From the NCBI GenBank assembly GCA_012033205.1, contig JAAUSO010000033.1, forward strand, positions 1-49,479: a DNA stretch of 49,479 nucleotides, given 5' to 3'. Shown piece after piece: positions 15,632 through 46,370 of the stretch. This DNA is from Richelia sp. SL_2_1. Its GTDB lineage: Bacteria > Cyanobacteriota > Cyanobacteriia > Cyanobacteriales > Nostocaceae. The translations under genes were made by a program, and so were the position numbers. The notes beneath the pieces were generated by a model, which had not been told where the DNA came from, ran no database searches, and was given only the letters and a program-made list of their open reading frames with translations. The number at the start of each line of letters is the position of its first letter. Position 1 is the first letter of the stretch.

Positions 15632-18592
15632 ATGACCACCAGTACCGACATCTACCAGGAGCTTCTAGCTAAAATCACACCGTTTGACCGTCTTGACTCG
15701 ACGGTGTTAGAGGGTATTATTCACAAACTCCAACCATTGCGCTACCGGATGGGACAGGCAATTCTAGTCAAAGAAAACCTGCCTGCAAATATTTATATTC
15801 TCCACACCGGACAAGCACGGTTATTGGGATACTGCCTCGATTCAATTGCCCCGCAAACATTAGAAAAACTCGAACCAGGTGCAATAATTGGTGCAACAGG
15901 TATTATTCGAGGTGTACCATGCGAAACTGCGATCGCATCTACTGAATCGGTATGTCTCACCCTCAAAGTATCTGACTTTCAAGAATTATTGTCTCAACAA
16001 CCTGACATCGCAGCGTATTTCCGCAACCAATTAAGTTTAATTGAAGCATACGACTTAATCGGAGTAGAAACCAATCGTCGGGGTAAAGTTGTAAACGATT
16101 TGAAAGAATTAGCAATTCGATCTTTAAAACACGCTACCGTACTCAACCTACCACCTGATAAAATTCCACTTTCTCAAATCGACCCCAATCTACTATGGTT
16201 AGTCAGCAGTTCGGGTAGTAACTATCCTGTTGGCAGCGTTATTGATACAACCAATAATCAACAATACATCCAATCTACAGATAAAGGAATACGGCTGATC
16301 GGGTTTACTGACCCCACATTATCATTCTCGAAAGCCAAAGAAGAAATATTATATGAAACATCAATTATTCCCAACCAGCACTCTTCCATACCATTCGCAC
16401 CCGAAAAACCAGAAGTAGCATCAGAAGCAACTAACAAGCAGATAAAATATCCCTACATTCATGGAAAAGGATTAGTTAATGCAACACTTGCTTGTTTCCA
16501 AATGCTAGCATTATTATGGAATATGCCGTGGAAACGCGATGTACTTAGACGTGCATTAGAAAATAACTATAAGCGTACAGGCAATATATCGATTGAAATA
16601 TGCGGTGCTGTTGCCGAATTGATGGGTTTGAAAGCACAACTTGTAGAAGTACCCGCAGTTGCAGTATCAAAACTTCCTACACCCGTATTACTTTCCTGGC
16701 AAGACACCTTTGCAATACTTTACCATACTACAGAAAAAGAATTAACCCTCGCCGTCCCCGAAACTGGAATTGTTCGTAAAAAAACCGAAGCATTCATCGA
16801 TATTTGGGGTCAAGATGGACAAGTATTACTATTACAATCAACGCCTGAAACACCGAAAAAGCGGTTTAATTTAAGTTGGTTCCTGCCATCAATCAAAAAA
16901 CATAAAGCCGCACTAATCGAAGTCTTTATTGCATCGTTATTTGTTCAACTCTTAGGACTAGCTAACCCATTAATTACCCAAGTAATTATTGATAAAGTCA
17001 TTATCCAAAATGGGATAAACACTCTTAATGTCTTGGGTGGTTTACTCATTGTCATAGCAATTATTGAAGGTATAGTTACTTGGTTACGGACTAACCTATT
17101 TGTCGATACTACCAACCGTATAGATTTAAGTTTGGGTACTGAAGTTATCGACCACTTATTAAGATTACCATTACGCTACTTCGAGAAACGCCCCGTAGGA
17201 GAAATATCCAGCAGGATAAACGAACTTGAAAATATTCGCTCGTTCCTCACAGGTACAGCATTAACAGTTGTATTAGATGCTATATTCTCGGTAGTTTATA
17301 TTTGTGTAATGATTTTATATAGTTGGTTGCTGACCATAGTAGCACTAGCAACTGTACCATTATTCGCATTACTTACATTTATATTTGCACCAATTATTCG
17401 CAGTCAAACTCGTACAAAAGCTGAACGCAATGCCGAAACCCAATCATATTTAGTTGAAGTGGTATCGGGTATTCAAACAGTTAAAGCCCAGAATATTGAA
17501 CTAAATTCCAGATGGAACTGGCAAACTCGCTACGGTAAATATATTAGTTCTAGTTTCCGAAATGTAATTACTTCCAATACTGCTGGTTCATTGAGCAATT
17601 TCCTCAATAAACTATCTGGCTTACTCTTATTATGGGTGGGTGCATATTTAGTATTGAAGCAAGAAATCACGCTAGGGGAATTGATTGCATTTAGAATTAT
17701 TGCTGGTTACGTTACAAGTCCGTTATTACGATTAATCCAACTGTGGCAAAACTTTCAAGAAACAGCATTATCCTTGGAAAGATTAGCCGATATACTAGAT
17801 ACTCCTCAAGAAAGCGAATTAGCTGGTAAAAATAATATACCAATGCCAGCAATTGTTGGTGAAATCAAATACGAAAATGTTACCTTTAGTTTTGCTAAAT
17901 CCTCTAACCTGCAACTCAATGGTGTCTCAATTGAAATCCCTAATGGTGCATTTATTGGAATAGTCGGACAAAGTGGTGCTGGAAAAAGTACTCTCACCAA
18001 GTTGATACCTCGATTGTACGAACTTGATGCGGGAAGGATTCTCATCGATGGGTATGATATCTCAAAGGTGGAATTATACTCGTTGCGTCGGCAAATCGGG
18101 ATGGTACTGCAAGATACTCTTCTATTTGATACCACCATCCAGGAAAATATTGCCCTAATAGTACCTGATGCTACACCAGAAGAAATTGTAGAAGCAGCAC
18201 ATATAGCTTGCGCCCATGACTTTATCATGAACTTACCCAATGGATATAACACCCGTGTGGGAGAAAGGGGTTCGGCATTGTCAGGAGGACAAAAGCAAAG
18301 AATTGCGATCGCACGAACAGTACTCCAGAATCCACCTTTATTGATTATGGATGAAGCAACTAGTGCGCTTGATTACGCTACCGAAAGACAAGTTTGTTCA
18401 AACCTACAAGCTGCGTTTAGAGGACGCACCGTATTGTTTATTACCCATAGATTAGCAACTATCAAGAATGCTGACATTATCTTGATGATGAGTCAAGGGA
18501 AGGTAGCAGAACAAGGCACTCATGACGAATTAATGGGAATGAAAGGTCTTTATTATTGCTTGTATCAACAGCAAGAAGCAGTTAGCTTTTAG
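15632..18592 (+). CDS. HlyB-like type I secretion ABC transporter with N-terminal cyclic-nucleotide-binding-like domain
   Basis: This is the inner-membrane ATPase of a type I secretion system, 986 aa. Residues about 20-140 are cNMP-binding-like; 270-405 a C39 peptidase-like domain; 420-720 the six-helix exporter domain; 740-986 the ABC ATPase with Walker A GQSGAGKST (~778), signature LSGGQKQR (~882), Walker B LLIMDEATSALD (~903) and the H-loop in THRLATI. In the C39-like region the catalytic Cys position reads NATLACF (Ala in place of Cys) and the usual Asp-Pro near the catalytic Asp reads AVPETG. It is therefore probably a non-cleaving, cargo-binding CLD domain as in HlyB. The start at 15632 has a GGGAG Shine-Dalgarno. 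The adaptor gene follows 174 bp downstream. An outer-membrane TolC partner is absent here and presumably chromosomal. Confidence 0.93.
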   Translation: MTTSTDIYQELLAKITPFDRLDSTVLEGIIHKLQPLRYRMGQAILVKENLPANIYILHTGQARLLGYCLDSIAPQTLEKLEPGAIIGATGIIRGVPCETAIASTESVCLTLKVSDFQELLSQQPDIAAYFRNQLSLIEAYDLIGVETNRRGKVVNDLKELAIRSLKHATVLNLPPDKIPLSQIDPNLLWLVSSSGSNYPVGSVIDTTNNQQYIQSTDKGIRLIGFTDPTLSFSKAKEEILYETSIIPNQHSSIPFAPEKPEVASEATNKQIKYPYIHGKGLVNATLACFQMLALLWNMPWKRDVLRRALENNYKRTGNISIEICGAVAELMGLKAQLVEVPAVAVSKLPTPVLLSWQDTFAILYHTTEKELTLAVPETGIVRKKTEAFIDIWGQDGQVLLLQSTPETPKKRFNLSWFLPSIKKHKAALIEVFIASLFVQLLGLANPLITQVIIDKVIIQNGINTLNVLGGLLIVIAIIEGIVTWLRTNLFVDTTNRIDLSLGTEVIDHLLRLPLRYFEKRPVGEISSRINELENIRSFLTGTALTVVLDAIFSVVYICVMILYSWLLTIVALATVPLFALLTFIFAPIIRSQTRTKAERNAETQSYLVEVVSGIQTVKAQNIELNSRWNWQTRYGKYISSSFRNVITSNTAGSLSNFLNKLSGLLLLWVGAYLVLKQEITLGELIAFRIIAGYVTSPLLRLIQLWQNFQETALSLERLADILDTPQESELAGKNNIPMPAIVGEIKYENVTFSFAKSSNLQLNGVSIEIPNGAFIGIVGQSGAGKSTLTKLIPRLYELDAGRILIDGYDISKVELYSLRRQIGMVLQDTLLFDTTIQENIALIVPDATPEEIVEAAHIACAHDFIMNLPNGYNTRVGERGSALSGGQKQRIAIARTVLQNPPLLIMDEATSALDYATERQVCSNLQAAFRGRTVLFITHRLATIKNADIILMMSQGKVAEQGTHDELMGMKGLYYCLYQQQEAVSF

Positions 18593-18766
18593 CTTTTAGC
18601 GTTTGAAGAAAGGAATTAAGCATACGTTTAGTTTCAACTAGTTCATTACTCAATTTTTCATAACTATACTAACAAGCCCATTTTTAAGCAACATATGAAA
18701 CGTTTTTTATCTATATCAATCTCAAACATTCACTTATTAAAGCTAATAGCTAATCGCTAAAAACCT

Positions 18767-20350
18767 ATGAATAACAGCAATAGTAACGGCAATGGTAAAA
18801 CTAATGAATCAATACCTACAATGGTGTCCATGCAGCAATTAGAAGAATTAGCTACCTTAGTATCACAACCATCTGATAAAATTCAACCAAAACCACCTAA
18901 TCATGCACCACCTTATATCCCAGAATTTGAGCAACCTGCTATATTAAAGCAGTCAAAAAATTGGTCGAGAGCCATATTATGGACTTTGATGATAGTAACA
19001 GCAGGTACATTCATTTGGGCAAACGTGACTAAAATTGAAGAAGCTGTATCGGCAACAGGAAAACTCGAAGCATCGGGTGCAACAAAAGATGTTCAAGCAC
19101 CAGTTGGTGGAGTAGTTAAAGAAATATTTGTTGAAGATGGGATGCAAGTTAAACAAGGTGAAAAGCTACTTACCCTCGATAATACGACTTCCTTAGTTCA
19201 AATGGAATCATTGCAAAAAATACGTACTAGCTTGATGCAAGAAAACCAATTTTATCAATCGCAATTAAAAGGTAGCAATTCGGTAGATGTTACCTTACTG
19301 CAAGTACCCGCATCAATGATAGATTTAACTAAAAGTCGTGCCGCACTGTTAGCTGAAAATCAAGTTTATCGCACTCAATTTGATGGTCATTCCAAGAATA
19401 GGTTATCCTCAGACCAATTAGAAAGAGTTACCTCCAGTCAAGTAGAATTAGATGCAAGGGTAACTGCATCGCAATCAGAAATAGAACAACTCCAACGCCA
19501 ATTTGAGCAAACTAATATTAAGATTGCTTCAATTATTGATACCCTGAAAATGAACCAGGGTATTTTAAATAATGTTAGCTCCTTGGCTCAACAGGGGGCA
19601 ATATCCCAAATTCAACTTCTCAAACAACAAGAGGAAGTGCGTAATGCTCAATCTCAACTTGACCAACTTACTCAAGAAAAAGCCAGATTATTAGCCGAAA
19701 TATCTGGTGGAAAAGCTAAATTACAAAATACTTACGCAGTATCCCGTAAAGATTGGCTTGATAAAATTGCTGTAAATAATCAAAAAATTGCTGAAATTGA
19801 CGGTCAACTTACCAAAGCAATAGTTGAGAATAATAAGAAGATAGCCGAAACTGATTCGCAAATTAGTCAAACCCAGATGAATCTTAAGTACCAGGAGATA
19901 AAAGCACCAACCAGCGGTACGGTATTTGAACTCAAGGCAAAATCTCCAGGGTTTGTAGCATCATCAACTGAACCCATATTAAAGATTGTTCCCAATGACA
20001 AACTTTTAGCAAAAGTATTCATTACTAATAAGGATATTGGTTTTGTAAAAGAAGGAATGACGGTTGACGTGCGAATTGATTCGTTTCCCTTTAGCGAATT
20101 CGGTGATATCAAAGGTAAACTTGTGTCCATAGGTTCTGACGCATTACCACCCGACCAAATTTATCCATTTTATCGATTCCCTGCCAAAGTCGAATTATCT
20201 AGTCAGCAATTTTTGGTATCCCAAAGGAATATCCCCTTGCAGTCAGGGATGGGAGTGAACGCAAACATTAAGATACGCGATCGCAAAGTGATATCAATAT
20301 TTACTGATATGTTTACTAACGGTGTAGAAAGTTTTAAGAATGTAAGGTAG
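18767..20350 (+). CDS. HlyD-family membrane fusion (adaptor) protein
   Basis: This is the periplasmic adaptor that links the ABC exporter to a TolC-like channel, 527 aa. It has a cytoplasmic Asn/Ser-rich and Pro-rich start, one membrane helix at about 65-83 (AILWTLMIVTAGTFIW), and a lipoyl/biotinyl half-motif at about 100-145 (APVGGVVKEIFVEDG, then V-QGEKLLTLD). A long coiled coil spans about 190-380, followed by the second lipoyl half (IKAPTSGTVFEL) and a C-terminal beta barrel. Length and order match HlyD-type adaptors. It is on the same strand and 174 bp after the exporter. No clear Shine-Dalgarno precedes the ATG. Confidence 0.92.
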   Translation: MNNSNSNGNGKTNESIPTMVSMQQLEELATLVSQPSDKIQPKPPNHAPPYIPEFEQPAILKQSKNWSRAILWTLMIVTAGTFIWANVTKIEEAVSATGKLEASGATKDVQAPVGGVVKEIFVEDGMQVKQGEKLLTLDNTTSLVQMESLQKIRTSLMQENQFYQSQLKGSNSVDVTLLQVPASMIDLTKSRAALLAENQVYRTQFDGHSKNRLSSDQLERVTSSQVELDARVTASQSEIEQLQRQFEQTNIKIASIIDTLKMNQGILNNVSSLAQQGAISQIQLLKQQEEVRNAQSQLDQLTQEKARLLAEISGGKAKLQNTYAVSRKDWLDKIAVNNQKIAEIDGQLTKAIVENNKKIAETDSQISQTQMNLKYQEIKAPTSGTVFELKAKSPGFVASSTEPILKIVPNDKLLAKVFITNKDIGFVKEGMTVDVRIDSFPFSEFGDIKGKLVSIGSDALPPDQIYPFYRFPAKVELSSQQFLVSQRNIPLQSGMGVNANIKIRDRKVISIFTDMFTNGVESFKNVR

Positions 20351-31404: not shown

Positions 31405-32652
31405 TTATAACCCCGCCGACAAACCAGAATTTCTTTTTTCTGATGTGACTATCCAACGCGCCCAAAATGGGTCGTGTCCGGGTAAAAGTCTTTGCAATTG
31501 AAGATGAATTTGTGGTTGGGTTCTCAAGTTTTCTGGAAAAACATTCAAATCGTCATGGCGCATCCAGGCTTCTGCGGCTTCAATTGCATTTTCTGCTTCT
31601 TTAGAACGGGCTTGTTTGAGTCCAAAAATTTCTGAGGTTAACCATCCAACTATATCTCCTTGTTTTGACCAAGGTATTTCATTAAGAGTGACTTCTCTAT
31701 CTTCTAATTCAAATAAAAATAATCTATCTTCTTCCTCATTAAAATCTGGTTCTAAGGAAGCAAGCACCAGTGGAGAATGAGTAGTAACTAAAGCCTGTAT
31801 ATTTATATTATTTTGTAATTCACACGCCACATCTAAAATAGCTGGTAAAATTACTCTTTGCCACTGGGGATGTAGGTGAGATTCAACTTCATCTATTAAT
31901 AAAACTATTTGATTTATTGGCTTTTCTTGGCGCAGTTCAGAAGCTTTTTTATGTTCGTACCAAGTCCACACTAGTAGATAAGCTAATCCCAAAATCCGCT
32001 TCATTCCGGCAGAAGCCTGAGTTACGGGAACGTTACCATAAGGCAGATTAACTGTAGGAATATCGCGCACGTCTTCCACAGAAACTCGCGTTGGTTCTCC
32101 AATCTCTATCCATTCCGAGGGATGAGGTGCAAGTTTTTTAATAACGTTAGAAAATAGTTGAAAGGGATATTTATTAGGTTGATTTTGCCATGTAACCCAA
32201 TCTTGAATCAAACCGTTACAAAGAACTTTACCGTTTAATTTTAAGCCATTCCAAAGCGTATCTGGATTAAAATTATAAGCATTATCCCGTTTACGTGCGG
32301 GGTCAAAAACAGAAAAACCACCATCAACACGCACGTAAATAATTACCTCTTTTAATAAGGGAGGCATTTGTAAATTACGCCATTGTTGTTCGGAGAAATC
32401 AAAGTCACTTTGATATTCTTTTATGTTTTTTTCGGTGCTAACTAGGCAGTTAATTTTGGGGTTTTCTTCTTTATTTCGTTGTGGATAAGCAGATTGGTCT
32501 ACCCAGTTTCCAGTGATTACCCACCAAGCAACATCGAGTAAAAAACTTTTACCCAAACCGTTATCGCCCGTAAATATATTGAGTCTATCGGCAAATTCAA
32601 CATCAAAATGGTCAGCCGGACCAACTTGCTGGAGGTGGATTTCTTTTAACAT
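31405..32652 (-). CDS. AAA/SMC-like ATPase of a Septu-like pair
   Basis: This 415-aa protein is an ABC/SMC-type (AAA_21-like) ATPase. It has Walker A FTGDNGLGKSF (~30), a signature-like ASAGMKRIL (~215), Walker B VLLIDEVESHLHP (~250) and the H-loop in VTTHSPLVLAS (~294). In Septu and related systems such ATPases (PtuA) sense infection and control the HNH partner, which is encoded 7 bp downstream here. It lacks the long coiled coil of true SMC proteins and the TOPRIM domain of OLD nucleases. It has its own promoter region, as the next gene upstream is divergent. Confidence 0.85.
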   Translation of the reverse strand: MLKEIHLQQVGPADHFDVEFADRLNIFTGDNGLGKSFLLDVAWWVITGNWVDQSAYPQRNKEENPKINCLVSTEKNIKEYQSDFDFSEQQWRNLQMPPLLKEVIIYVRVDGGFSVFDPARKRDNAYNFNPDTLWNGLKLNGKVLCNGLIQDWVTWQNQPNKYPFQLFSNVIKKLAPHPSEWIEIGEPTRVSVEDVRDIPTVNLPYGNVPVTQASAGMKRILGLAYLLVWTWYEHKKASELRQEKPINQIVLLIDEVESHLHPQWQRVILPAILDVACELQNNINIQALVTTHSPLVLASLEPDFNEEEDRLFLFELEDREVTLNEIPWSKQGDIVGWLTSEIFGLKQARSKEAENAIEAAEAWMRHDDLNVFPENLRTQPQIHLQLQRLLPGHDPFWARWIVTSEKRNSGLSAGL

Positions 32653-36891: not shown

Positions 36892-37244
36892 CTATTGCCT
36901 GGGAGCAAAGGTAAAAGAAATTGCAAAAAAGAATAAAAAATAGGCGAGAGGCGAAGAAGGTTGATTTTGTCTTTTATCTAAGAATTCTTGAATGGCGATT
37001 TCTAAAGCTTCTGTAAGTTGAATTTCGTTTTCAACACAATAAACCCGAAAGCTTTGAGCTAACGATTTCGGGGTAAGACCTGTAATTTGCGAATAGTTAG
37101 GGTTGCAGTTTTTCCCGTTAAGTTCTAGCTCAAACTCTTGAATCAGCGCTTTTTCAATTTGAACGCTGAGCATTTAGGTAAATGTAAACGTTCAACTAAT
37201 GGCAACGATGGCAGGTCTAAAGGGTTAATTCTTGCTACATTCAC
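36892..37244 (-). pseudogene. Degenerate second GIY-YIG copy fused to a ribbon-helix-helix-like domain
   Basis: The ATG-started frame (36892-37173, 93 aa) begins LSVQIEKALIQEFELELNG, which matches the C-terminal end of the neighbouring GIY-YIG nuclease (EIETALINHFEPLLNG). It then switches to the ribbon-helix-helix-like sequence found at 37711-37947. Upstream, another frame (37174-37244) reads INPLDLPSLPLVERLHLP, matching the N-terminus of the same nuclease (IDPLELPSLPLTERSQLP). So this locus is a second nuclease copy that lost its middle (~45 codons, including the GIY and YIG strands) and shifted frame, then joined a DNA-binding domain. The product may still be made from the internal ATG. Confidence 0.65.
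36959..37105. repeat. Direct repeat, copy 1 (147 bp)
   Basis: Nearly identical to 37748-37894; I count about 7 differences by eye over 147 bases. It encodes the shared ribbon-helix-helix-like segment. Confidence 0.85.
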
Positions 37245-37705
37245 TGGTTATCTTCTCTTTGTTTGCGCTCTCTACGTTCAATCAATGCTCTTTTGACTAT
37301 TGCGAGGATTAGCTGCGGTACACTTCTGAACTCTTCTTCAGCCCACCGTTGCAATTCCTCATAATCTTCTGGCTCAAAAGTAACGGTAGTTCTGGGTTTT
37401 TTGAATGGCAACTCCGAGCCATTTAGCAGCGGCTCGAAGTGATTTATGAGAGCAGTTTCTATTTCAATTAGCAGGTGGTGTTCACTGCATTCAAACCATG
37501 CAACTCTTACTGATTCGTTTAATTCTTTAAGCTGTTCCCATCTGTGATGACCTAACCAACGGTCACGCAGATTAACCGTTCGTCCGATATACAAAACACT
37601 TTTATCCGTTAGAACAAAGTATACGCATGGCTGTCTTGGTAGCTGTGAACGTTCAGTTAATGGTAGGGATGGCAATTCAAGTGGATCAATATTGTAATAG
37701 TTCAT
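37241..37705 (-). CDS. GIY-YIG nuclease with C-terminal ribbon-helix-helix-like domain
   Basis: This is a small endonuclease-family protein, 154 aa. The catalytic fold shows the VYFV strand (~28), SVLYIGRTVNLRDRW (GIY-YIG second strand plus Arg, ~36-50), a His in LGHHRW and the metal-binding Glu in EIETALINHF, with NG near the end. Residues about 103-145 look like a ribbon-helix-helix DNA-binding or oligomerisation domain (RTTVTFEPEDYEEL, then LILAIVKRALIE). It lies between two copies of a 147-bp direct repeat and next to its own degenerate copy. The role is unknown: a stand-alone nuclease, a regulator or a mobile passenger. Confidence 0.85.
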   Translation of the reverse strand: MNYYNIDPLELPSLPLTERSQLPRQPCVYFVLTDKSVLYIGRTVNLRDRWLGHHRWEQLKELNESVRVAWFECSEHHLLIEIETALINHFEPLLNGSELPFKKPRTTVTFEPEDYEELQRWAEEEFRSVPQLILAIVKRALIERRERKQREDNQ

Positions 37706-37710
37706 GCGTT

Positions 37711-37947
37711 CTACTTATTTTGGTTTATTTCTTCTTCGGTTGAAGGAGGTTGATTTTGTCTTTTGTCTAAGAATTCTTGAATGGCCACTTCTAAGGCTTC
37801 TGTAAGTTGAATTTCGTTTTCAACACAATAAACCCGAAAGCTTTGAGCTAACGACTTCGGGATAAGACCAGTAATTTGCGAATAGTTAGGGTTGTTACGT
37901 CTGCCCAATATCTCTTCCTTGAATACTTTATATAAACCATTTTCCAT
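37711..37947 (-). CDS. Small ribbon-helix-helix-like protein
   Basis: This protein is 78 aa from ATG 37947. That start is chosen over the longer frame to 37992 because AAGG lies about six bases before it and the extra N-terminus (Cys and Gln rich) is not shared with the paralogue. The core PKSLAQSFRVYC-ENE then TEALE-AIQEFLDKR fits a CopG/ParG-like ribbon-helix-helix. It ends 5 bp before the GIY-YIG start and is probably co-transcribed with it. It could be a plasmid copy-number or partition regulator; that is inference. Confidence 0.65.
   Translation of the reverse strand: MENGLYKVFKEEILGRRNNPNYSQITGLIPKSLAQSFRVYCVENEIQLTEALEVAIQEFLDKRQNQPPSTEEEINQNK
37748..37894. repeat. Direct repeat, copy 2 (147 bp)
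   Basis: Partner of 36959-37105, in the same orientation, 643 bp apart. Recombination between the copies would remove the GIY-YIG nuclease gene. Confidence 0.85.
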
Positions 37948-38310
37948 TTTTACCTTGCAATAACAAAATTTTGATATATTGCGCTGTTGCAACAGCGCAA
38001 TATTGTGTTAGCCTAGCATCATAAATAAAAAACCCAAAATCCTTACGCTGCCAAAATTACAGCCTATTTTTGGGGCAAATTCGTATTGCCGTTGAGCCTA
38101 TGAGCAAGGGTACATATATAGGTACTTATGAGAGGAGTCTAATTACATCAAAACATTGAAAACTCTTGCCCAGAGGTTATTTCAAGCCTTGAAAAAATGA
38201 TTTTCATTCAATTGTTGTCCAACTTATCAGATAGGTGTCCAAGGGTATTGATACATGGTTCAAAGTTATTGACGTACCTGATAACTAAGAATTTAGGGAT
38301 AGCTATCTAC

Positions 38311-38339
38311 TTGATACATCACCTCCGTATATCTATGTA
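38311..38339 (+). promoter_or_regulatory. Candidate sigma-70-type promoter of the 38-43 kb operon
   Basis: TTGATA (38311-38316), 17-base spacer, TATGTA (38334-38339), then ATG at 38360. The predicted leader is only about 15 bases and carries no clear Shine-Dalgarno. The rest of 37993-38310 is non-coding. Confidence 0.5.
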
Positions 38340-38359
38340 GTATTAGTAGTAATTAATAT

Positions 38360-38872
38360 ATGACAAACAAAAACTACTTAAGAAAGTACGCTCAGCTCAG
38401 AAGCCTTTACGAGCAGACTTTAGGAAAGAAAATCTCGGATATAACTTGGTACAGGTTGGTTGCTTCGATGAAGCGCCACTTAGGGTTTGCAGTAGAAAAT
38501 CCTTCAAGTGAAGCGATAGTCAAGTCAGTTGCACAATTCAAGTCACGCTATAAGCGATTTTCGTTTACGAGTGAAGATTTCCAAGAATGCTGGAAAGTCT
38601 TTCATAAATATAGAAACAGTAATCAAACCTTTACTTGTGACTCGTTTCTACACGACTTGACAAAAACATTAGAGATAAACGAAATACCTAGAAGCACAAA
38701 ATATCACTGGTTTAGTCGCTGTGGATTATCTTATTCAGCCAATAAAAAGTTCAATAACGATGATTTCGCATTAGTTGCACTTGGTGCTGCCAAATGGGCA
38801 TTTAATAAGCGCATTACTGGCTCAAAATTTAACACGCCCAAACCTAGAATTGAAGTTTTAGCTATTGAATGA
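38360..38872 (+). CDS. Unrecognised basic protein, first gene of the 38-43 kb operon (170 aa)
   Basis: I do not recognise this protein. It is basic (many Lys/Arg) and aromatic-rich, with repeated helical segments (YLRKYAQLRSLYEQTLGKK, WYRLVASMKRHLG, FQECWKVFHKYRN). No membrane helix or catalytic motif is seen; the basic helical character would suit nucleic-acid binding. It heads a plus-strand gene run and has a promoter-like sequence just upstream. The next gene is 85 bp away. Confidence 0.7.
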   Translation: MTNKNYLRKYAQLRSLYEQTLGKKISDITWYRLVASMKRHLGFAVENPSSEAIVKSVAQFKSRYKRFSFTSEDFQECWKVFHKYRNSNQTFTCDSFLHDLTKTLEINEIPRSTKYHWFSRCGLSYSANKKFNNDDFALVALGAAKWAFNKRITGSKFNTPKPRIEVLAIE

Positions 38873-38957
38873 ATATGACTCAAGGACGGAATTTCAAAAT
38901 CAAACAATTAGAGTTAATTATCTTGAATTAATAGTTTAGTAACTGGAGAAAAACGAC

Positions 38958-39554
38958 ATGGCTACTACAAAATTTCAGAACAACGTTCGGACAAGATTGT
39001 ACAAGAAGAATTATCAGGGTTTTTCACAAAGCGATTTTTTAGAAGCTGCAAAAATTATAGGCTGCGATGATTTAGATAACCCTACCCACGAACAAATAAA
39101 AGCAGGGGTACAGTACTTGATTGATAAACATAATCAATCTCTAGCTTTGACAGAATCAGAAGCTACTCAAAGAACGGAAAATTCAACCGCCATTACCAAT
39201 CAGCAAAAAGAACAATTAATATCAGTACAAGCTGAATCGTTGGGAATAGAGTTGAGCGAATCAGAAATCACAGATATTTCTCAAACCGTTAGCGATTCAT
39301 TTACCGACTTCGTTAGTGCTGTAGAAACTATCAACTCATCAATCAAAGATTATGCACAAAGTAAATTTGATGAAGTTGAACAAAAAATTGATTCTAGCAA
39401 CAGCAACCTGCGTGACTATATCAATAAGAGAACTACCAGCTTGCAAAGAAAGAGTGTAGAAGGAGCTATAACAACAAAGGAGGTACTAGAGCAAAAAAGC
39501 TCTAGCCTCAAAAGCTTCTTCAAAAGTCTCTCAGCAGCTTTCAAAACACAGTAA
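38958..39554 (+). CDS. Unrecognised soluble helical protein of the operon (198 aa)
   Basis: I do not recognise it. The first ~60 residues are compact and basic (NVRTRLYKKNYQGF, then DFLEAAKIIGCDD), with spacing like the start of the preceding gene product. Residues 70-180 are acidic and helical with coiled-coil periodicity (SDSFTDFVSAVETIN, KFDEVEQKIDSSNSN), and the tail is basic. No membrane helix. Its stop overlaps a downstream open frame in the +1 register that carries a membrane helix (see 39706-39888). A Shine-Dalgarno-like GGAG lies upstream of the ATG. Confidence 0.7.
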   Translation: MATTKFQNNVRTRLYKKNYQGFSQSDFLEAAKIIGCDDLDNPTHEQIKAGVQYLIDKHNQSLALTESEATQRTENSTAITNQQKEQLISVQAESLGIELSESEITDISQTVSDSFTDFVSAVETINSSIKDYAQSKFDEVEQKIDSSNSNLRDYINKRTTSLQRKSVEGAITTKEVLEQKSSSLKSFFKSLSAAFKTQ

Positions 39555-39705
39555 TCACTTAACGTTTAGCAGAGCATTCAAGCTGCTATCAATCGTTATT
39601 CCTGCTTTATTCTTAATAGATTACTGTTACCAATCAATCAGCTATCACTTCAAATACCAAGCCTACTTAGAAAGAAAAGACAGAATACAGCAATACCAAC
39701 AATGG

Positions 39706-39888
39706 ATGCAATATCAATGTACAGAAATACTAACAGAAGAGAGGATTAATCGCTGTGAAAAATACTGGCAAGCTAAAAAACTTGGTTTCTTCCAAATCGC
39801 GCCACCTAGAAAGACAACTTCGTGGAAAATTCAACGCTTCCACAAACCTAATTTACAGGGCATTAATGGGCGACCAAAAAGCACTTAA
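39706..39888 (+). CDS. Small membrane-protein frame overlapping the next gene; start unclear
   Basis: The frame is open from 39490 to 39888 and reads as real protein. About 30 residues in lies a membrane helix (FKLLSIVIPALFLIDYC), then a basic segment with paired cysteines (QYQCTEIL, INRCEKYW) and a basic tail. The first ATG is 39706, after the helix. No ATG, GTG or TTG precedes the helix, so either a rare start (for example CTG near 39583) or +1 frameshifting from the upstream gene would be needed. It overlaps the 217-aa gene by 134 bp in another frame. It may instead be a remnant. Confidence 0.35.
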   Translation: MQYQCTEILTEERINRCEKYWQAKKLGFFQIAPPRKTTSWKIQRFHKPNLQGINGRPKST

Positions 39889-40408
39889 ACTAATCGGTCA
39901 AATGGGAAATGATGGAGCCAAAATAAGCGAATTTGCCCCCAAAGTTAAAGACAACATGATTGCTGCTATTAAAGGAGCAGAAGATTTAAATACAACCCTA
40001 GCAGCCATTTATAAACAAGCTGGTGTAAGTGGAGAACGAATAGAACGAGAAATACAATCATCCATTCTCGCCGACGATAAATTAGCAAATCAATTAGAAG
40101 AACTAAACCTTGACTTTGAAGGAGCTAAGAGCAAAGAAGAATTGCGCCATAAACAAGCTAAAGAACATATTACATTAAAAGCTTGGGTAGACCGTCATAT
40201 GATGTCAATCGATGGCGAATACAAGATGCTGCAAGAAGAATTAAAGACAGAAGTAAGACAGCAAACAATTGATTTACAACATGATAAAGAACTGGGTAAC
40301 TATTATCTTGATGCTGGCGATAATGCTAGAGACGATTTAAAACCCAAGAAACAATATGCAGGTCGTTCAATAATTCAAAAAATCAAAAATGCAATTCTTG
40401 GATTCTAG
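39755..40408 (+). CDS. Unrecognised coiled-coil protein of the operon (217 aa)
   Basis: I do not recognise it. The GTG start at 39755 has a good Shine-Dalgarno (AGAGAGG about 10 bases upstream); an internal ATG at 39866 is an alternative. Residues 1-40 are very basic, followed by an alternating hydrophobic helix region (IGQMGNDGAKISEFAPK), then an acidic coiled coil (LANQLEELNLDFEG) and a basic C-terminal helix (IIQKIKNAILGF). No catalytic motif or membrane helix is apparent. The gap to the next gene is 180 bp. Confidence 0.7.
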   Translation: MKNTGKLKNLVSSKSRHLERQLRGKFNASTNLIYRALMGDQKALKLIGQMGNDGAKISEFAPKVKDNMIAAIKGAEDLNTTLAAIYKQAGVSGERIEREIQSSILADDKLANQLEELNLDFEGAKSKEELRHKQAKEHITLKAWVDRHMMSIDGEYKMLQEELKTEVRQQTIDLQHDKELGNYYLDAGDNARDDLKPKKQYAGRSIIQKIKNAILGF

Positions 40409-40588
40409 TTGTCATTCGCAAGTTAGAAGTTGGAGAAGAGAAGATTCACAGGCTACCTTTCAAACATTCTTCCCTATAACTATAACTTTGATGGGAGAAG
40501 TTTGAATAATCAAGTAAGAATACTACCATTTATCCATCTTCCTTCTTCAATTATCCTTCTTTTTTATTCCCTCTTACTTCATTAACAT

Positions 40589-41149
40589 ATGTTAGATAAA
40601 TTTGAAGATTTAGAAGAACAAGAACATTCAGAAACTATCCCAGATACTCAATTACCCAAAGACTTAATACAGCATCTGGAAGAACGTAAAAAACATAGAA
40701 AGCAAGTCATTCAAACAACGGAACTAGTACAGAAATATTTTATAAGTTGGTCGTTAAGTACTAGCGGATTTTTTCTTGCACGACTGCTTTTATTAATCAA
40801 CGGTGGTGCATCTTTATGGCTTGCAGCAGGACTATGTTTTTCTATTTGTTCAATCAGTTCAATAGTTGGTTTATCTGGGTTTAGAGCTAATTATAACGAC
40901 GGATTTGAGGTTGAAGGAATGGAAAAACCAGTAAAAACAATAGGTGGCTTTGTAATCGCTGCTGGAAGCACTTGGCTAGCTATCAAAGATTATCAATACT
41001 TCCAGCAAATGACTACAGATAGCGCCTATCAAATCAGTGCAGACATTCAGACTATTTATCAAGAAAGACCTTGGTTAGACCCCTGGTTATCAATTGGTAT
41101 TGCGGCATTCATAGTAATTAGTTCGTTATTTCTTATTAGCAGGAGATGA
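40589..41149 (+). CDS. Four-helix membrane protein of the operon (186 aa)
   Basis: I do not recognise this family. A charged 55-residue cytoplasmic start is followed by four hydrophobic segments, at about 58-74, 76-96, 112-128 and 162-182 (for example WLSIGIAAFIVISSLFLI), ending in an RR tail. It overlaps the downstream ATPase gene by 4 bp (ATGA), so the two are translationally coupled and probably form one complex in the membrane. Confidence 0.75.
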   Translation: MLDKFEDLEEQEHSETIPDTQLPKDLIQHLEERKKHRKQVIQTTELVQKYFISWSLSTSGFFLARLLLLINGGASLWLAAGLCFSICSISSIVGLSGFRANYNDGFEVEGMEKPVKTIGGFVIAAGSTWLAIKDYQYFQQMTTDSAYQISADIQTIYQERPWLDPWLSIGIAAFIVISSLFLISRR

Positions 41150-42669
41150 GTAAAAATACGATTGAACTATCAGCTATTGTCATATCAGCAGTAGTCGGCT
41201 TAACCGGCTTCTGCTTTTCTCATTCACGTCAACCTTACCCACTAGCACAAATACAATTCTGTCCGCAAACTGCTAATAAAAAAGAGAACATTTTAACTGA
41301 TAATAATATTGCTAAAAAACTTAAATATTATGACTTAGAAAAAGCACAAAAGAAACTAGATAGTAAATACTGCCATCAACCAAGATATGTCCTTGCAGAA
41401 GAGTGGGATAAATATAACAGCTACGGCTCAATTATTCCATACATGGGTAGCACAATTAGCTTAGTAAGAATTATCCCTAGAGATAACCCTTATCAAATAT
41501 ACGGTAATATAGCTTCCGTTCTAGGATTGTGGGGTATTTCATTAACGCTAGCTTCTCGTGTCGGTAGGCTTAAAAAATCCGATTATCAACTAGGAGAAGA
41601 AGAAAAAACCACAGCTTATTATAATTGGCAACAACACCGACGCAACCGAGATATCAAACAACACTCAAACCAACTACATACAGATACTTTAAAAGATGGC
41701 TTAACTCAAGAAGATTTGCAGCAAAGAAAAGAATTAGGGCTAACCGATGATGAAAACGAAGCTATCAAAAATCAACTGCAACTAGAAGATTATCTCAAAG
41801 CCAGAGCCGTAAAACATTCCGACATGGACAAACAAATTGCTTCTAATTTACTAGATAAACACAAAGCAGAAAAAGAAATAGATAAATTACAAAATAAAAA
41901 ATCATCTCAAACAAATATTAATCAACAAGGAAGCGACAAACAACTGGTTAACTCCCTTATAGAAGCCCTCAAATCCCATGAAGACGGTTGGCTGTATGAC
42001 CTTATCAAAAACGCTAAACCCCTATGGCTCATAGGTTCTCAAGGTAGCGGTAAAACCAATACCGCAGGTGCGATAGCGAAGCGCTGCTGCAAGCAGATCG
42101 CATTAATTCGTAAATACTGCTTCGATGCACCAATTTACCAACTAATTGATAGACACGCTACCGGAGAAAACTGGGAAGTATGGAAACTACTTGATGCTAC
42201 ATTAAAAGCCGAATCAGAAGAAGAAATCGGACAGTCTTTGGAGGATGCAACTGATAGATGGTTACAAAGAATCAAAGAAAAACCATCTACCAAACAACAA
42301 ATAATTATTGATGAATTTACCAACCTGAAGAAAATTGATAGCTGTAAAGAAGCAGCAATGAAATTCTTCTCCATGCATCTTACAGATACCCGTAAAGCTA
42401 AAGAATACTTCATTGGTGTTAACCACTATTTTACTAATGAAAGCACCGTAGAAGGAACATTTGAAGCCAGGAAATCAGGAACAATTCAACTTAAAAAGTT
42501 CTCAGCCAATGGAGAAACACCATTATCTAGAGTGCAGATTGTACATGGATTGGTTGATGAGAATGGCAACGAATTGGAAGAAGTAGAAAGAACATTACCA
42601 GTGTGGTTGAAAGCCAATAATATTTATGGGCATTTTAACGGTAAACCAATAGATTTTAATCATGAATAG
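41146..42669 (+). CDS. Membrane-anchored P-loop ATPase (FtsK/TraG/HerA-like in layout), 507 aa
   Basis: This is a P-loop ATPase with two N-terminal membrane helices (about 6-24 and 122-142), a loop with three Cys between them, and a cytoplasmic charged linker. The ATPase has Walker A LIGSQGSGKTNTAGA (~297) and Walker B QQIIIDEFTNLKK (~385), then a stretch with an NHYFTNEST sensor-like segment and a C-terminal PVWLK end. This layout resembles type IV coupling proteins or a minimal FtsK, but the ATPase core is short and I cannot place it in a known family. It overlaps the upstream four-helix protein by 4 bp and the next membrane protein by 8 bp, so the three form a coupled unit. It may power DNA or protein movement across the membrane, or a defence complex. 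Confidence 0.8.
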   Translation: MSKNTIELSAIVISAVVGLTGFCFSHSRQPYPLAQIQFCPQTANKKENILTDNNIAKKLKYYDLEKAQKKLDSKYCHQPRYVLAEEWDKYNSYGSIIPYMGSTISLVRIIPRDNPYQIYGNIASVLGLWGISLTLASRVGRLKKSDYQLGEEEKTTAYYNWQQHRRNRDIKQHSNQLHTDTLKDGLTQEDLQQRKELGLTDDENEAIKNQLQLEDYLKARAVKHSDMDKQIASNLLDKHKAEKEIDKLQNKKSSQTNINQQGSDKQLVNSLIEALKSHEDGWLYDLIKNAKPLWLIGSQGSGKTNTAGAIAKRCCKQIALIRKYCFDAPIYQLIDRHATGENWEVWKLLDATLKAESEEEIGQSLEDATDRWLQRIKEKPSTKQQIIIDEFTNLKKIDSCKEAAMKFFSMHLTDTRKAKEYFIGVNHYFTNESTVEGTFEARKSGTIQLKKFSANGETPLSRVQIVHGLVDENGNELEEVERTLPVWLKANNIYGHFNGKPIDFNHE

Positions 42670-43129
42670 AATAAAAAATAAATTACAACAATTTCAAGAA
42701 ATAGGGATTTGGTATTCGTTAGCTTGCTTATCAAGCTGGGCAACAGCTATAAGTATTAGCATATTTATTGTTTCTGGATTTGGATTAATAGCTTTACCAC
42801 TAACAGGGAATAAAACTCCCTATTCACTTAAAAAGACAAATTATGGAAGCTGTGGATTTGCAATTGGGTTTATTTTATTAGGAGCAGGAGCAGCAGCCCA
42901 GGGGGATAGGGATACTTCATATATGCTGGTTAGATTAAGTAGAAGATATGAAAATGATAAGGGAGAAAGGGGAGATTATTTATCCTCTCAATGTTTGGGT
43001 TGTAAATATGCTTCGGGCAATTATTTATTACCTTGCGCTGTTAATCCTAATCTTAAAAAAGATGAATATTGTAGTTATTTTAAAGTTAAATCTGAGAATA
43101 CTTCTATTGTGGATGAGTTGGAAAAATAG
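42662..43129 (+). CDS. Two-helix membrane protein with a C-terminal four-Cys motif (155 aa)
   Basis: I do not recognise it. Two hydrophobic helices lie at about 18-45 (SISIFIVSGFGLIALPL) and 62-80 (CGFAIGFILLGAGAAA). The cytoplasmic tail holds four cysteines in the pattern C-x2-C-x10-C-x11-C (CLGCKY, LLPCAVNP, EYCSYF), typical of a small metal-binding knuckle. It overlaps the ATPase gene by 8 bp and is the last gene of the operon. Confidence 0.72.
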   Translation: MNRIKNKLQQFQEIGIWYSLACLSSWATAISISIFIVSGFGLIALPLTGNKTPYSLKKTNYGSCGFAIGFILLGAGAAAQGDRDTSYMLVRLSRRYENDKGERGDYLSSQCLGCKYASGNYLLPCAVNPNLKKDEYCSYFKVKSENTSIVDELEK

Positions 43130-45021: not shown

Positions 45022-45404
45022 AGCTAACAGCGTAGACTACAAGCGATCAAATCGATATCAAACCGATAGCAATGATATCAGCATATCTTGTATTGGTTAC
45101 ACCCGTTGCAGCCAATTGTGTAGGGAAGGCGCATAAGTTGAAAATTTCTGCTTCAACCGTTCGGAAAGTTGCTGTCCTCTTACAGGATAAAGAAGACGGC
45201 GCTTTCTTTATGACGGCGGTGCTACAGGGTGTCACGAAAACACAGGGATTACAGCCACTCGTTTTCATCTCCAGCGCGACAAATTTTCATTTTATGCGCG
45301 AACTTACAGGGGTAATAACTGCCGAAAACTTGGATTGTGTAAGGGAAGGACAAAGAAACGGTAGAATAAATATCGAAAATAAAACTTTTCGATAGTTGTT
45401 TATT
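45022..45404. other. Intergenic region upstream of the recombinase
   Basis: A frame on each strand spans much of this 380 bp, but neither looks like a known family. A plasmid resolution or attachment site for the recombinase could be here. A perfect 9-bp stem-loop lies at its end (45371-45394). Confidence 0.4.
45371..45394. promoter_or_regulatory. Perfect 9-bp hairpin before the recombinase start
   Basis: TATCGAAAA (45371-45379), loop TAAAAC, TTTTCGATA (45386-45394). It is 10 bases before the ATG at 45405, where it could mask the ribosome-binding region or serve as an operator or half of a recombination site. Confidence 0.5.
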
Positions 45405-46370
45405 ATGTTACTCCCAGACAAGTCGCATACTGATATAATTACTAACCCTTTTGCCATTGCAGCAGAACGCGATTTGTTGCAGGAGTTGTTAGTGGGGAAG
45501 CGCAACAAAAGTACCCGTCATGAGTATGCTAAGGATTTAAGAAAGTTTTTTCAAGCTGTGGCAGCAAAGGAACCGACACCTGAGTTGGTGGCGCAGTTTT
45601 TAGAAATGGAAAGGTTTTCTGCTGTAACTTTGGTGTTGCGGTATAAGGCACAGCTGATTGATTTGGGATTGAAGGAAGCTACTGTTAATCGGCGGTTGGC
45701 GGCAATTAAGGCGTTGGTTAATTATGCTTATAATGTGGGCAAGTGCAGTTGGACTTTAGCTGATATCAAAAGTGAAAAGGTAAAGCAGTACCGGGATACG
45801 ACGGGAATTAGTCCCGAAGCTTTTAAAAAAATGTTAGCAATACCGGATAGAGACACGTTGAAAGGTAAGCGGGATTATGCCTTGTTGCGGCTGTTGTGGG
45901 CGAACGCGCTACGCAGGGAGGAAATATCCCGATGTAATCTTGAAGACTTGGATTTGGAAGCAAAGACGCTGGCTATTCTGGGGAAGGGGCGGGGTACGCA
46001 GAAGGAAATTATTGATTTACATCATAAGAGTTGTGCGGCGCTTATGGATTGGTTGTGGGTGCGGAAGGAATTAGATATTAAGCAGCCGTTGTTCGTTTCT
46101 TTACGTCCGCGCTACGGACACAGGTTGACGGGTGACGGTATCCGCAAGATTGTGGCGGGGATATCCAAGGAGGCGGGGATTTCTAAAATCATCAGCCCGC
46201 ACAAAATCCGGCATTCGTCGGTAACTGCGGCGCTAGATGCGAGTGGAGGGGATGTTAGAAGCGTGCAAAAGTTGAGCCGTCACGCTTCTTTAAATACTTT
46301 GATGATTTACGATGATAACCGCACCAAGGCACAGGGAAAAATTACTGCGCTTTTGGAAGATTTGGTTTAA
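45405..46370 (+). CDS. Tyrosine recombinase (XerC/D-like)
   Basis: This is a site-specific recombinase, 321 aa from ATG 45405. The longer frame from TTG 45396 overlaps nothing useful and ATG is the standard start. The N-terminal core-binding domain is about 25-115 (KSTRHEYAKDLRKFF). The catalytic residues are seen: Arg in NALRREEI (~166), Lys in the beta-hairpin (GKGRGTQKEI), H-x-x-R in SPHKIRHSS (~265), His in LSRHAS and the nucleophilic Tyr in TLMIYDD (~300). It is probably the plasmid multimer resolvase. A remnant of a second copy is at 47135-47196. Confidence 0.93.
   Translation: MLLPDKSHTDIITNPFAIAAERDLLQELLVGKRNKSTRHEYAKDLRKFFQAVAAKEPTPELVAQFLEMERFSAVTLVLRYKAQLIDLGLKEATVNRRLAAIKALVNYAYNVGKCSWTLADIKSEKVKQYRDTTGISPEAFKKMLAIPDRDTLKGKRDYALLRLLWANALRREEISRCNLEDLDLEAKTLAILGKGRGTQKEIIDLHHKSCAALMDWLWVRKELDIKQPLFVSLRPRYGHRLTGDGIRKIVAGISKEAGISKIISPHKIRHSSVTAALDASGGDVRSVQKLSRHASLNTLMIYDDNRTKAQGKITALLEDLV

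Follow-up and report, generated by a model that had tools for sequence, protein, structure and literature searches.

A conserved five-gene operon of cyanobacterial plasmids with exchangeable modules, a candidate +1 frameshift and a putative membrane-anchored DNA motor

A 49,479 bp contig of Richelia sp. SL_2_1 ("the window" in what follows is this whole stretch, contig C10 of a 7.55 Mb genome in 359 contigs) carries a core operon of five genes, g1 to g5 (38360-42669), that recurs in fixed order on cyanobacterial plasmids, evolves under purifying selection, exchanges parts of itself as modules, encodes an ATPase with a motor-type fold, and has at the end of its second gene the comparative signature of a +1 frameshift. 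The operon appears to be previously undescribed: among the titles and opening lines of abstracts listed by literature searches of open-access PMC papers, none gives a description of it, and the machine as a whole is kept unassigned here. The reading that is placed first, a little short of what would be called probable, is that g1-g5 specify a plasmid-borne envelope machine that moves the DNA of its own plasmid, with spread from cell to cell as the first choice of purpose. The window is itself plasmid-like: it encodes ParA, ParB and a MobV relaxase (PF01076, 5.4e-30), and its nearest named relatives by g5 are Plectonema cf. radiosum, Rivularia sp. and Calothrix parasitica (89-95%). The genes under discussion are these:

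38360-38872, + strand: g1, a basic protein of 170 residues (isoelectric point 9.8), predicted to be all-helical
38958-39554, + strand: g2, an N-terminal domain, variable linker and coiled coil, 198 residues in the zero frame (alignment A7)
39755-40408, + strand: g3, a soluble protein of 217 residues with a GTG start
40589-41149, + strand: g4, an integral membrane protein of 186 residues (alignment A4)
41146-42669, + strand: g5, an ATPase of 507 residues (AlphaFold2 (AF2) model of the L045 protein, alignment A1)
42662-43129, + strand: g6, a protein with hydrophobic stretches and Cys residues; accessory, outside the core

Much of this layout had been anticipated by the original prediction, made from the letters of the window alone: the six co-directional open reading frames (ORFs), the basic first protein, the overlaps of 4 nucleotides between g4 and g5 and of 8 nucleotides between g5 and g6, and the Walker A (GSQGSGKT) and Walker B (IIIDEF) motifs of g5 are all where they were said to be. 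Other elements fared less well. The membrane protein g4 is indeed a membrane protein, but in place of the four helices ascribed to it a simple hydropathy scan finds only two strong hydrophobic stretches. The promoter placed ahead of g1 was not recovered by a consensus scan limited to sigma-70-like sites, which found none on the + strand in 37900-38360 (sigma-70-like sites in the scanned region: 12, against 20.6 in shuffles). That no family could be named remains true: none of the six proteins reaches a Pfam or NCBIfam cut-off, and when aligned members of g1 (28), g3 (32), g4 (32) and g5 (39) are scanned against Pfam, nothing coherent emerges save a general AAA resemblance in g5, where AAA_22 appears in 12 of the 39 members, at best at 1e-4.

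Genes g1 to g5 are real genes under purifying selection, because their ratios of nonsynonymous to synonymous substitution rates (dN/dS) against close copies lie at 0.03-0.25. The window was compared with six such copies (the g1 pair with L044 could not be scored); the ranges are 0.06-0.25 for g1 (five pairs), 0.12-0.18 for g2, 0.03-0.08 for g3, the lowest of the core, 0.06-0.20 for g4 and 0.07-0.10 for g5. The sixth gene behaves differently. Its dN/dS is 0.40-0.79; it is present in the window and in loci L041, L042, L044, L045, L046 and L048, with a weak match (2e-5) in L115, and is missing beside 94%-identical paralogues. It is a lineage-specific extra, and the single complex proposed for the products of the last three genes therefore does not hold for g6.

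How widely is the operon found, and how constant is it? Profile searches of 47 loci (L040-L086, 46 of them from a scan of genome contigs and one from scans of viral contigs) recover all five genes in the same order and on a single strand in 37, including L071, whose g5 lies in two frames. In nine more the operon is cut by the edge of the locus or contig (in L080, g1 sits at the other end of the contig), and the single exception is L082, with g5 and a g4 fragment only. The survey of gene order that had been called for thus finds the five-gene core conserved. That the homologues might never occur together, a possibility that the original prediction had left standing, is ruled out: g3 and g5 co-occur on plasmids and in genomes. 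PLSDB has 45 records with a match to g5 and 45 with a match to g3 (the query for g3 was the L010 copy, and 43 of its 45 matching records cover at least 80%); 39 of the 40 g5 records among the matches listed are also in the g3 list, from which AP025021 is missing, while the g3 list has six records beyond the 40 listed for g5. Among the matches listed, the smallest carrier has 18 kb and the largest 366 kb; with the single exception of Allocoleopsis, their names are ones that we take to be those of Nostocales. Of 386 genomes from the phylum, 22 contain g5 (19 of these belong to the window's own family) and 19 contain g3, all within the 22. When the window's own genome is searched with g5, the number of matches is 16 at E<=10; 13, several of which are partial, reach E<=1e-15, and they lie on 13 contigs. 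Several named strains have three or four such plasmids.

The company that the operon keeps is that of a plasmid backbone. Clustering of neighbours over 63 loci (of unequal length, many of them short) places Prim-Pol-type replication proteins upstream of it, and finds a tyrosine recombinase in 36 loci and ParA in 21; a cluster of MOBP-type relaxases is represented in nine. An 18,433 bp Calothrix plasmid, typed non-mobilizable, contains ParA, a Prim-Pol protein, the operon and unassigned ORFs. Mobility typing of the 45 g5 plasmids makes 26 of them mobilizable, 19 non-mobilizable and none conjugative. The co-occurrence with MobV that had been raised for checking thus holds for the window, while the relaxase looks optional across carriers (the 26 of 45 and the nine of 63 just given). 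A 51 kb contig of the IMG/VR viral collection, L040, also holds the complete operon; it may be a plasmid that has been filed as a virus.

The ATPase is the part of the machine about which most can be said. For the L045 protein, which is 93% identical to g5, the AF2 model (pLDDT 75.8, pTM 0.49) predicts a membrane-anchored architecture: a membrane helix, a small Cys-containing domain, a second membrane helix that continues into a coiled-coil stalk of some 130 residues, and a C-terminal RecA-type ATPase. Residues G297, G300, K303, D389 and E390 are invariant in 18 rows of alignment A1. Foldseek ranks FtsK first (E 7.4e-6), RadA second, domain D3 of EssC fourth, with a target TM of 0.51, and TcpA, an ATPase of conjugation, sixteenth (6o1w, E 1.2e-4); by itself the fold comparison of this model assigns g5 to no subfamily. 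A further connection is provided by a distant motor in L124. The g5 profile matches the motor part of this protein at 8e-17, and with 2.5e-9 the protein is also above the cut-off for HerA/DUF87; it comes after a g3 homologue and a 187-residue ORF in the position of g4. The motor of L129, beside which no g3 was seen, stands at the DUF87 cut-off (23.3 against 23.2 bits); eight other distant relatives scanned for DUF87 are below the cut-off or without match. It is by this transitive argument, rather than by direct membership, that we place g5 in the FtsK-HerA clan. The suggestion of a DNA-translocating apparatus with a membrane-anchored P-loop ATPase accordingly draws support from three sides: the fold of g5, the HerA-type relative that follows a g3 homologue, and the place of the operon among plasmid backbone genes.

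(The close copies differ by a small insertion in this motor, and the distant ones by what accompanies it. At 42073-42096 of the + strand, directly after the Walker A helix, 24 nucleotides of a short dispersed repeat insert eight residues in frame; they are found in the window and in L041 and are missing in L042, L045 and the other 17 rows of A1, and an 18-nucleotide piece of them has six copies in the genome. Distant relatives of g5 without g1 or g2 by profile are L097, L099, L100, L102, L103, L105-L108, L122-L125 and L127-L129; g3 is recognised in nine of these loci. Several of these distant motors look, by eye, as if they bore winged-helix-like C-terminal tails, as though DNA recognition had moved into the motor.)

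Comparing loci along their length shows that the operon is not inherited as a single block. Two features ahead of g1 enter here:

38110-38359, + strand: conserved non-coding cis-region of about 250 bp upstream of g1, visible when five close copies are aligned with the window
TTATCAGATAGGT at 38224-38236 and ACGTACCTGATAA at 38272-38284, + strand: imperfect inverted repeat in the cis-region, 85% complementary

Against L042 and L045, the two close copies that were scored, similarity starts at about 38,110, some 250 bp ahead of g1: identity is 28-54% upstream of about 38100 and 73-95% from there to g1. L043, which has another type of g1, is at background (40-46%) over the same cis-region stretch; its identity with the window stays at 31-59%, also background, as far as about 39,200, inside g2, rises to 85-100% over the next 300 bp, and then is high through g5 save for short dips. 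A recombination breakpoint is thus placed near 39200. Because identity breaks at about 38,110 and at about 39,200, the cis-region, g1 and the N-terminal domain of g2 are, on these alignments, one exchange unit, independent of the membrane core. A second unit, by the same kind of comparison, is the ATPase half of g5: in L056 this half is 78% identical, while g3, g4 and the membrane half of g5 are at 23-27%. L067 shares g1 and the g2 N-terminal domain (42-50%) and does not share g3, g4 and the membrane half of g5 (19-33%). A non-coding region that travels with g1 and part of g2 is what a DNA-specificity cassette should look like, and g1, which falls into six sequence clusters at 33% identity (43 loci), is proposed as its putative DNA-recognition component. 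The AF2 model of g1 is confident (pLDDT 87.4, seven helices); a structure search was tried with it as proof of DNA binding and rejected, there being no PDB match at E<=0.001.

The end of g2 is the other distinctive feature of the operon; like the cis-region, it had no place in the original prediction. It involves the following:

39507-39515, + strand: candidate +1 shift site CTC AAA AGC, where a slip of one base allows the P-site AAA to pair with AAA again
39495-39500 and 39522-39527, + strand: further in-frame AAA AGY, in the same overlap as the shift site
39514-39888, + strand: +1 frame extension of g2, with a transmembrane stretch at about 39562-39625 and a tail

The tail has two Cys that recur in related copies, and the extension runs over the start of g3. 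Its helix part (39571-39750) has dN/dS of 0.04-0.11 in six pairs of the window's group. (The part that overlaps g3 is left out of this estimate: misaligned frames with stops were obtained there, and the values are not used.) No ATG, GTG or TTG stands upstream of the +1 helix in the window or in its eight close copies.

This arrangement is general. A survey was given 58 loci, 49 of which have both g2 and g3 (L104 and L119 are the same plasmid). In all 49, taking the best hydrophobic stretch in any frame, a frame is open across the g2 stop, and in 47 it is the +1 frame. As a control, the end of each gene was scored for a frame open at least 20 nucleotides before the stop and then a hydrophobic stretch. 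The +1 and +2 counts are 47 and 2 of 49 for g2, 0 and 0 of 48 for g1, 2 and 1 of 49 for g3, 11 and 3 of 48 for g4, and 0 and 0 of 47 for g5. The +1-open part of g2 contains an in-frame AAA AGN in 40 of 48 loci (L104 left out), while 3.4% of 11,319 windows of the same length elsewhere in the operons do so; Lys-Ser codon pairs are written AAA AGY 51 of 56 times in the overlap and 65 of 374 times elsewhere in the operons. Three of the eight exceptions (L121, L126 and L073) have an in-frame TTT CGN, whose background is 0.4% of 9,516 windows. On AAA A the P-site tRNA is able to pair perfectly again after a slip of one base, and so is that of UUU, to UUC, on TTT C. Three further paralogues of the window's own genome in which g2 was found (L109, L111 and L115, from ten stretches) have AAA AGC. 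No hydropathy stretch above 1.3 occurs in the 49 zero-frame g2 sequences, except in L044 (1.52); L044 aside, fused g2-membrane genes in the zero frame are not found.

Programmed +1 frameshifting is, on these comparisons, the likeliest source of a candidate membrane-anchored form of g2, and we consider it probable. Its main rival is that the +1 ORF is a separate small membrane protein, made from a non-standard start or one within the overlap. Some annotations do treat it as a gene (L011, 11985-12278), and at least one ATG, GTG or TTG precedes the helix in 26 of the 49 loci; in the other 23, among them the window and its eight close copies, there is no such start, yet in the window's group the helix part is strongly selected, and a separate protein would not need AAA AGN to be conserved, nucleotide by nucleotide, inside g2. 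We consider this rival unlikely. Several observations nevertheless count on the other side of the frameshift proposal: 1) the end of g4 shows the same open +1 frame with a hydrophobic stretch in the 11 of 48 loci noted above; 2) five loci (L119, L098, L056, L058 and L081) have neither AAA AGN nor TTT CGN; 3) the families of g2 tails are related and the counts not independent: AAA AGN is present throughout 12 of 19 families when the linkage is 50%, throughout 7 of 14 when it is 40% and throughout 4 of 11 when it is 35%; 4) in one plasmid (L104/L119) the open frame is +2; and 5) no consistent RNA structure was found near the shift site in five stretches, for which folding gives z of 0.28, -1.29, 0.05, -3.96 and 0.19, so that one of five (L064, at -3.96) folds clearly better than shuffles. 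A stimulatory RNA structure is not needed at every +1 site.

What might such a machine do? In the working model, g1, perhaps with the N-terminal domain of g2, would recognise the cis-region before the operon, and the coiled coil of g2 would tie this DNA-recognition complex to the membrane. Frameshifting at AAA AGN would give part of the g2 a C-terminal membrane anchor and would set the ratio of free to anchored adaptor. A membrane core would be built by g3, g4 and g5, through which the FtsK/HerA-like motor of g5 would pump double-stranded DNA, and the plasmid would spread from cell to cell by this direct pumping, in the manner of Streptomyces TraB/Spd. That the complex binds DNA, that g5 is hexameric, that DNA is the cargo, in which direction it goes and that it passes between cells, we infer. 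Movement of plasmid DNA is put forward because a membrane-bound motor of the plasmid backbone with a specificity cassette of DNA type fits it. Transfer is favoured because the module sits on plasmids with and without a relaxase and on none of the 45 typed conjugative, and because the named hosts are filamentous genera, an analogous solution being found in another multicellular bacterium. The proposal in its most specific form, that of a relaxase-free plasmid spreader of filamentous cyanobacteria that dispenses with a type IV secretion system (T4SS) and combines an exchangeable specificity cassette, a membrane core, an exchangeable HerA/FtsK-type motor and a DNA adaptor whose anchoring is set by frameshifting, is tentative, and in all its particulars at once rather unlikely.

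The analogous solution is that of the Streptomyces plasmids pIJ101 and pSVH1, small plasmids on which, in the cited accounts, a single membrane-linked FtsK-type motor, TraB, acts with accessory membrane (Spd) proteins, without a T4SS, in a multicellular host and from a sequence-specific cis-locus (PMC4170104, PMC5365140). As far as those accounts go, the g5 operon shares the small plasmids, the single membrane-linked motor, the accessory membrane proteins, the lack of a T4SS, the multicellular host and, as a candidate, the specific cis-locus, and the genomic setting of g5 plasmids would be compatible with transfer independent of relaxase and T4SS. Unlike TraB, g5 has neither an FtsK profile match nor a C-terminal recognition domain; unlike TraB/Spd, the operon has family-less g1-g4 and a candidate frameshift, and it is known from sequence alone. 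Cyanobacteria, moreover, are diderm, which is a difference from Streptomyces. Two other motors invite comparison. The transjugation ATPase TdtA of Thermus, a motor of the FtsK-HerA superfamily required for DNA donation, is reported to be without a secretion signal and beside a nurA-like gene; TcpA of the Clostridium plasmid pCW3 serves a T4SS-like system (both PMC5365140). With these descriptions as a guide, g5 resembles TdtA in being read as an FtsK-HerA-type motor and differs in its two predicted membrane helices; it resembles TcpA in fold and in being plasmid-encoded, and differs in that none of its 45 plasmids is typed conjugative. A reduced conjugative apparatus in the T4SS sense, which the original prediction had thought of, finds no footing either: g1-g6 match none of the coupling-protein families, and no VirB4/VirD4-type ATPase or mating-pair protein is found among them beyond chance, the best being a TraF match to g4 at 0.41.

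The same evidence can be read as segregation: the operon would be a plasmid FtsK/Xer-like system whose motor clears or positions copies at the septum and resolves multimers with the downstream tyrosine recombinase. Here the likeness is to FtsK/SpoIIIE with XerCD, FtsK being the best fold for g5 and a tyrosine recombinase being often on the same plasmid; the difference is that no FtsK_SpoIIIE match occurs in the 39 g5 members and no FtsK_gamma match in this genome. Of 41 recombinase genes, found in the 36 of 63 loci, 38 are downstream of the operon; the linkage is nevertheless loose (median distance 4 kb, same strand in 29 of 41), and the recombinase family is found on 117 plasmid records (E<=1e-20), against 45 for g5. 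ParA cuts both ways: it is a frequent neighbour, and at least 21 of 63 loci have in it a partition system already. A possible actin-like gene precedes some distant relatives of the operon, where the corresponding ParM match is weak. Spd-type genes are reported to affect stability as well in Streptomyces (PMC4170104). Because tyrosine recombinase and ParA neighbours are frequent, segregation keeps a share of the belief, as an explanation that is unlikely on balance and still worth serious attention; on sequence data transfer and segregation are inseparable. (By eye, possible actin-like, ParM-type, genes lie at 13941-14999 of L108 and 12096-13118 of L127, ahead of some distant operons; a ParM sequence search gives E 0.08 for one and nothing for L108.)

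Protein secretion by an EssC/EccC-like motor, with small helical proteins as substrates, is improbable. EssC and EccC chains are among the best folds and g3 is a conserved small protein, but EssC has tandem motor domains where g5 has a single one, the operon is linked to plasmid replication and partition genes, and the exchange of g1 and the g2 N-terminal domain together with the cis-region is a better fit to DNA recognition. Two further explanations gained little support. A plasmid-borne anti-phage or entry-exclusion system, the membrane-bound defence system of the original prediction, would have in its favour the swapping of ATPase halves, such swapping of gene halves being also seen in defence genes, and PADLOC matches that are weak throughout, the best for the six proteins being 1.8e-4 (17.4 bits) for g2 and 2.7e-4 (18.5 bits) for g5; the operon is, for its part, a main module of minimal plasmids, and defence is very improbable. 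Least probable is that the operon serves to package the virions of a plasmid-like virus: g5 is matched at 4.4e-12 by PHROG 29669, a family without a known function, and the viral-collection contig L040 bears the operon, but three g5 queries gave zero matches at E<=1 in 50,697 phage records, and no structural PHROG (E<=0.01) was found in the 10 proteins scanned out of the 24 annotated on the 18.4 kb carrier.

To return to the proposed DNA-moving machine, certain results sit badly with it: 1) RadA is the second-best fold for g5, there are further matches to KaiC, RecA and ClpX, and the global TM-scores are low in every case; 2) none of the 39 g5 members matches FtsK_SpoIIIE at E<=0.01, and the genes of this genome that do pass its cut-off include no g5 copy; 3) the window's g5 ends after the motor, the C-terminal DNA-recognition domain of TraB being absent from it; 4) the g1 model has no fold match in the PDB at E<=0.001, the first listed being mostly calmodulin-like and meaningless, and no consistent DNA-binding family was found for g1, one of 28 members matching Arg_repressor at 0.003; and 5) the filamentous form of the hosts is presumed from their genus names.

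The interest of the operon lies partly in what current typing makes of its carriers. One survey (PMC8600333) considers 374 of the 424 plasmids of cyanobacteria that it covers, or 88%, to be probably immobile by the model now in use. If small plasmids have a conserved and selected operon for a motor that is probably anchored in the membrane, they have a means of transfer or segregation that is missed by standard mobility typing; if the proposal of transfer is true, many "immobile" cyanobacterial plasmids gain their own route between cells. The frameshift would be of value apart from this, as a conserved bacterial +1 site that converts a soluble coiled-coil protein to a membrane-anchored one, and the exchangeable cassettes can be thought of as natural experiments on specificity between plasmids in one cell.

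The remainder of the window can be dealt with briefly. Downstream of the operon, an ORF at 45396-46370 has plasmid relatives that are mostly annotated as tyrosine recombinases or integrases. An ORF of 4,347 residues, with an ABC exporter that contains a peptidase and a protein of HlyD type in its neighbourhood (106-13149 and 15632-20350), likely marks a type I secretion locus with a giant substrate. Upstream of the operon, at 31405-32652, is an ATPase matching AAA_21/AAA_15, a group that we take to hold many defence ATPases. Finally, short ORFs at 36892-37173 and 37711-37992 share a nearly identical stretch on both sides of an ORF at 37241-37705, which looks, from its sequence, like a GIY-YIG-like protein inserted with duplication.

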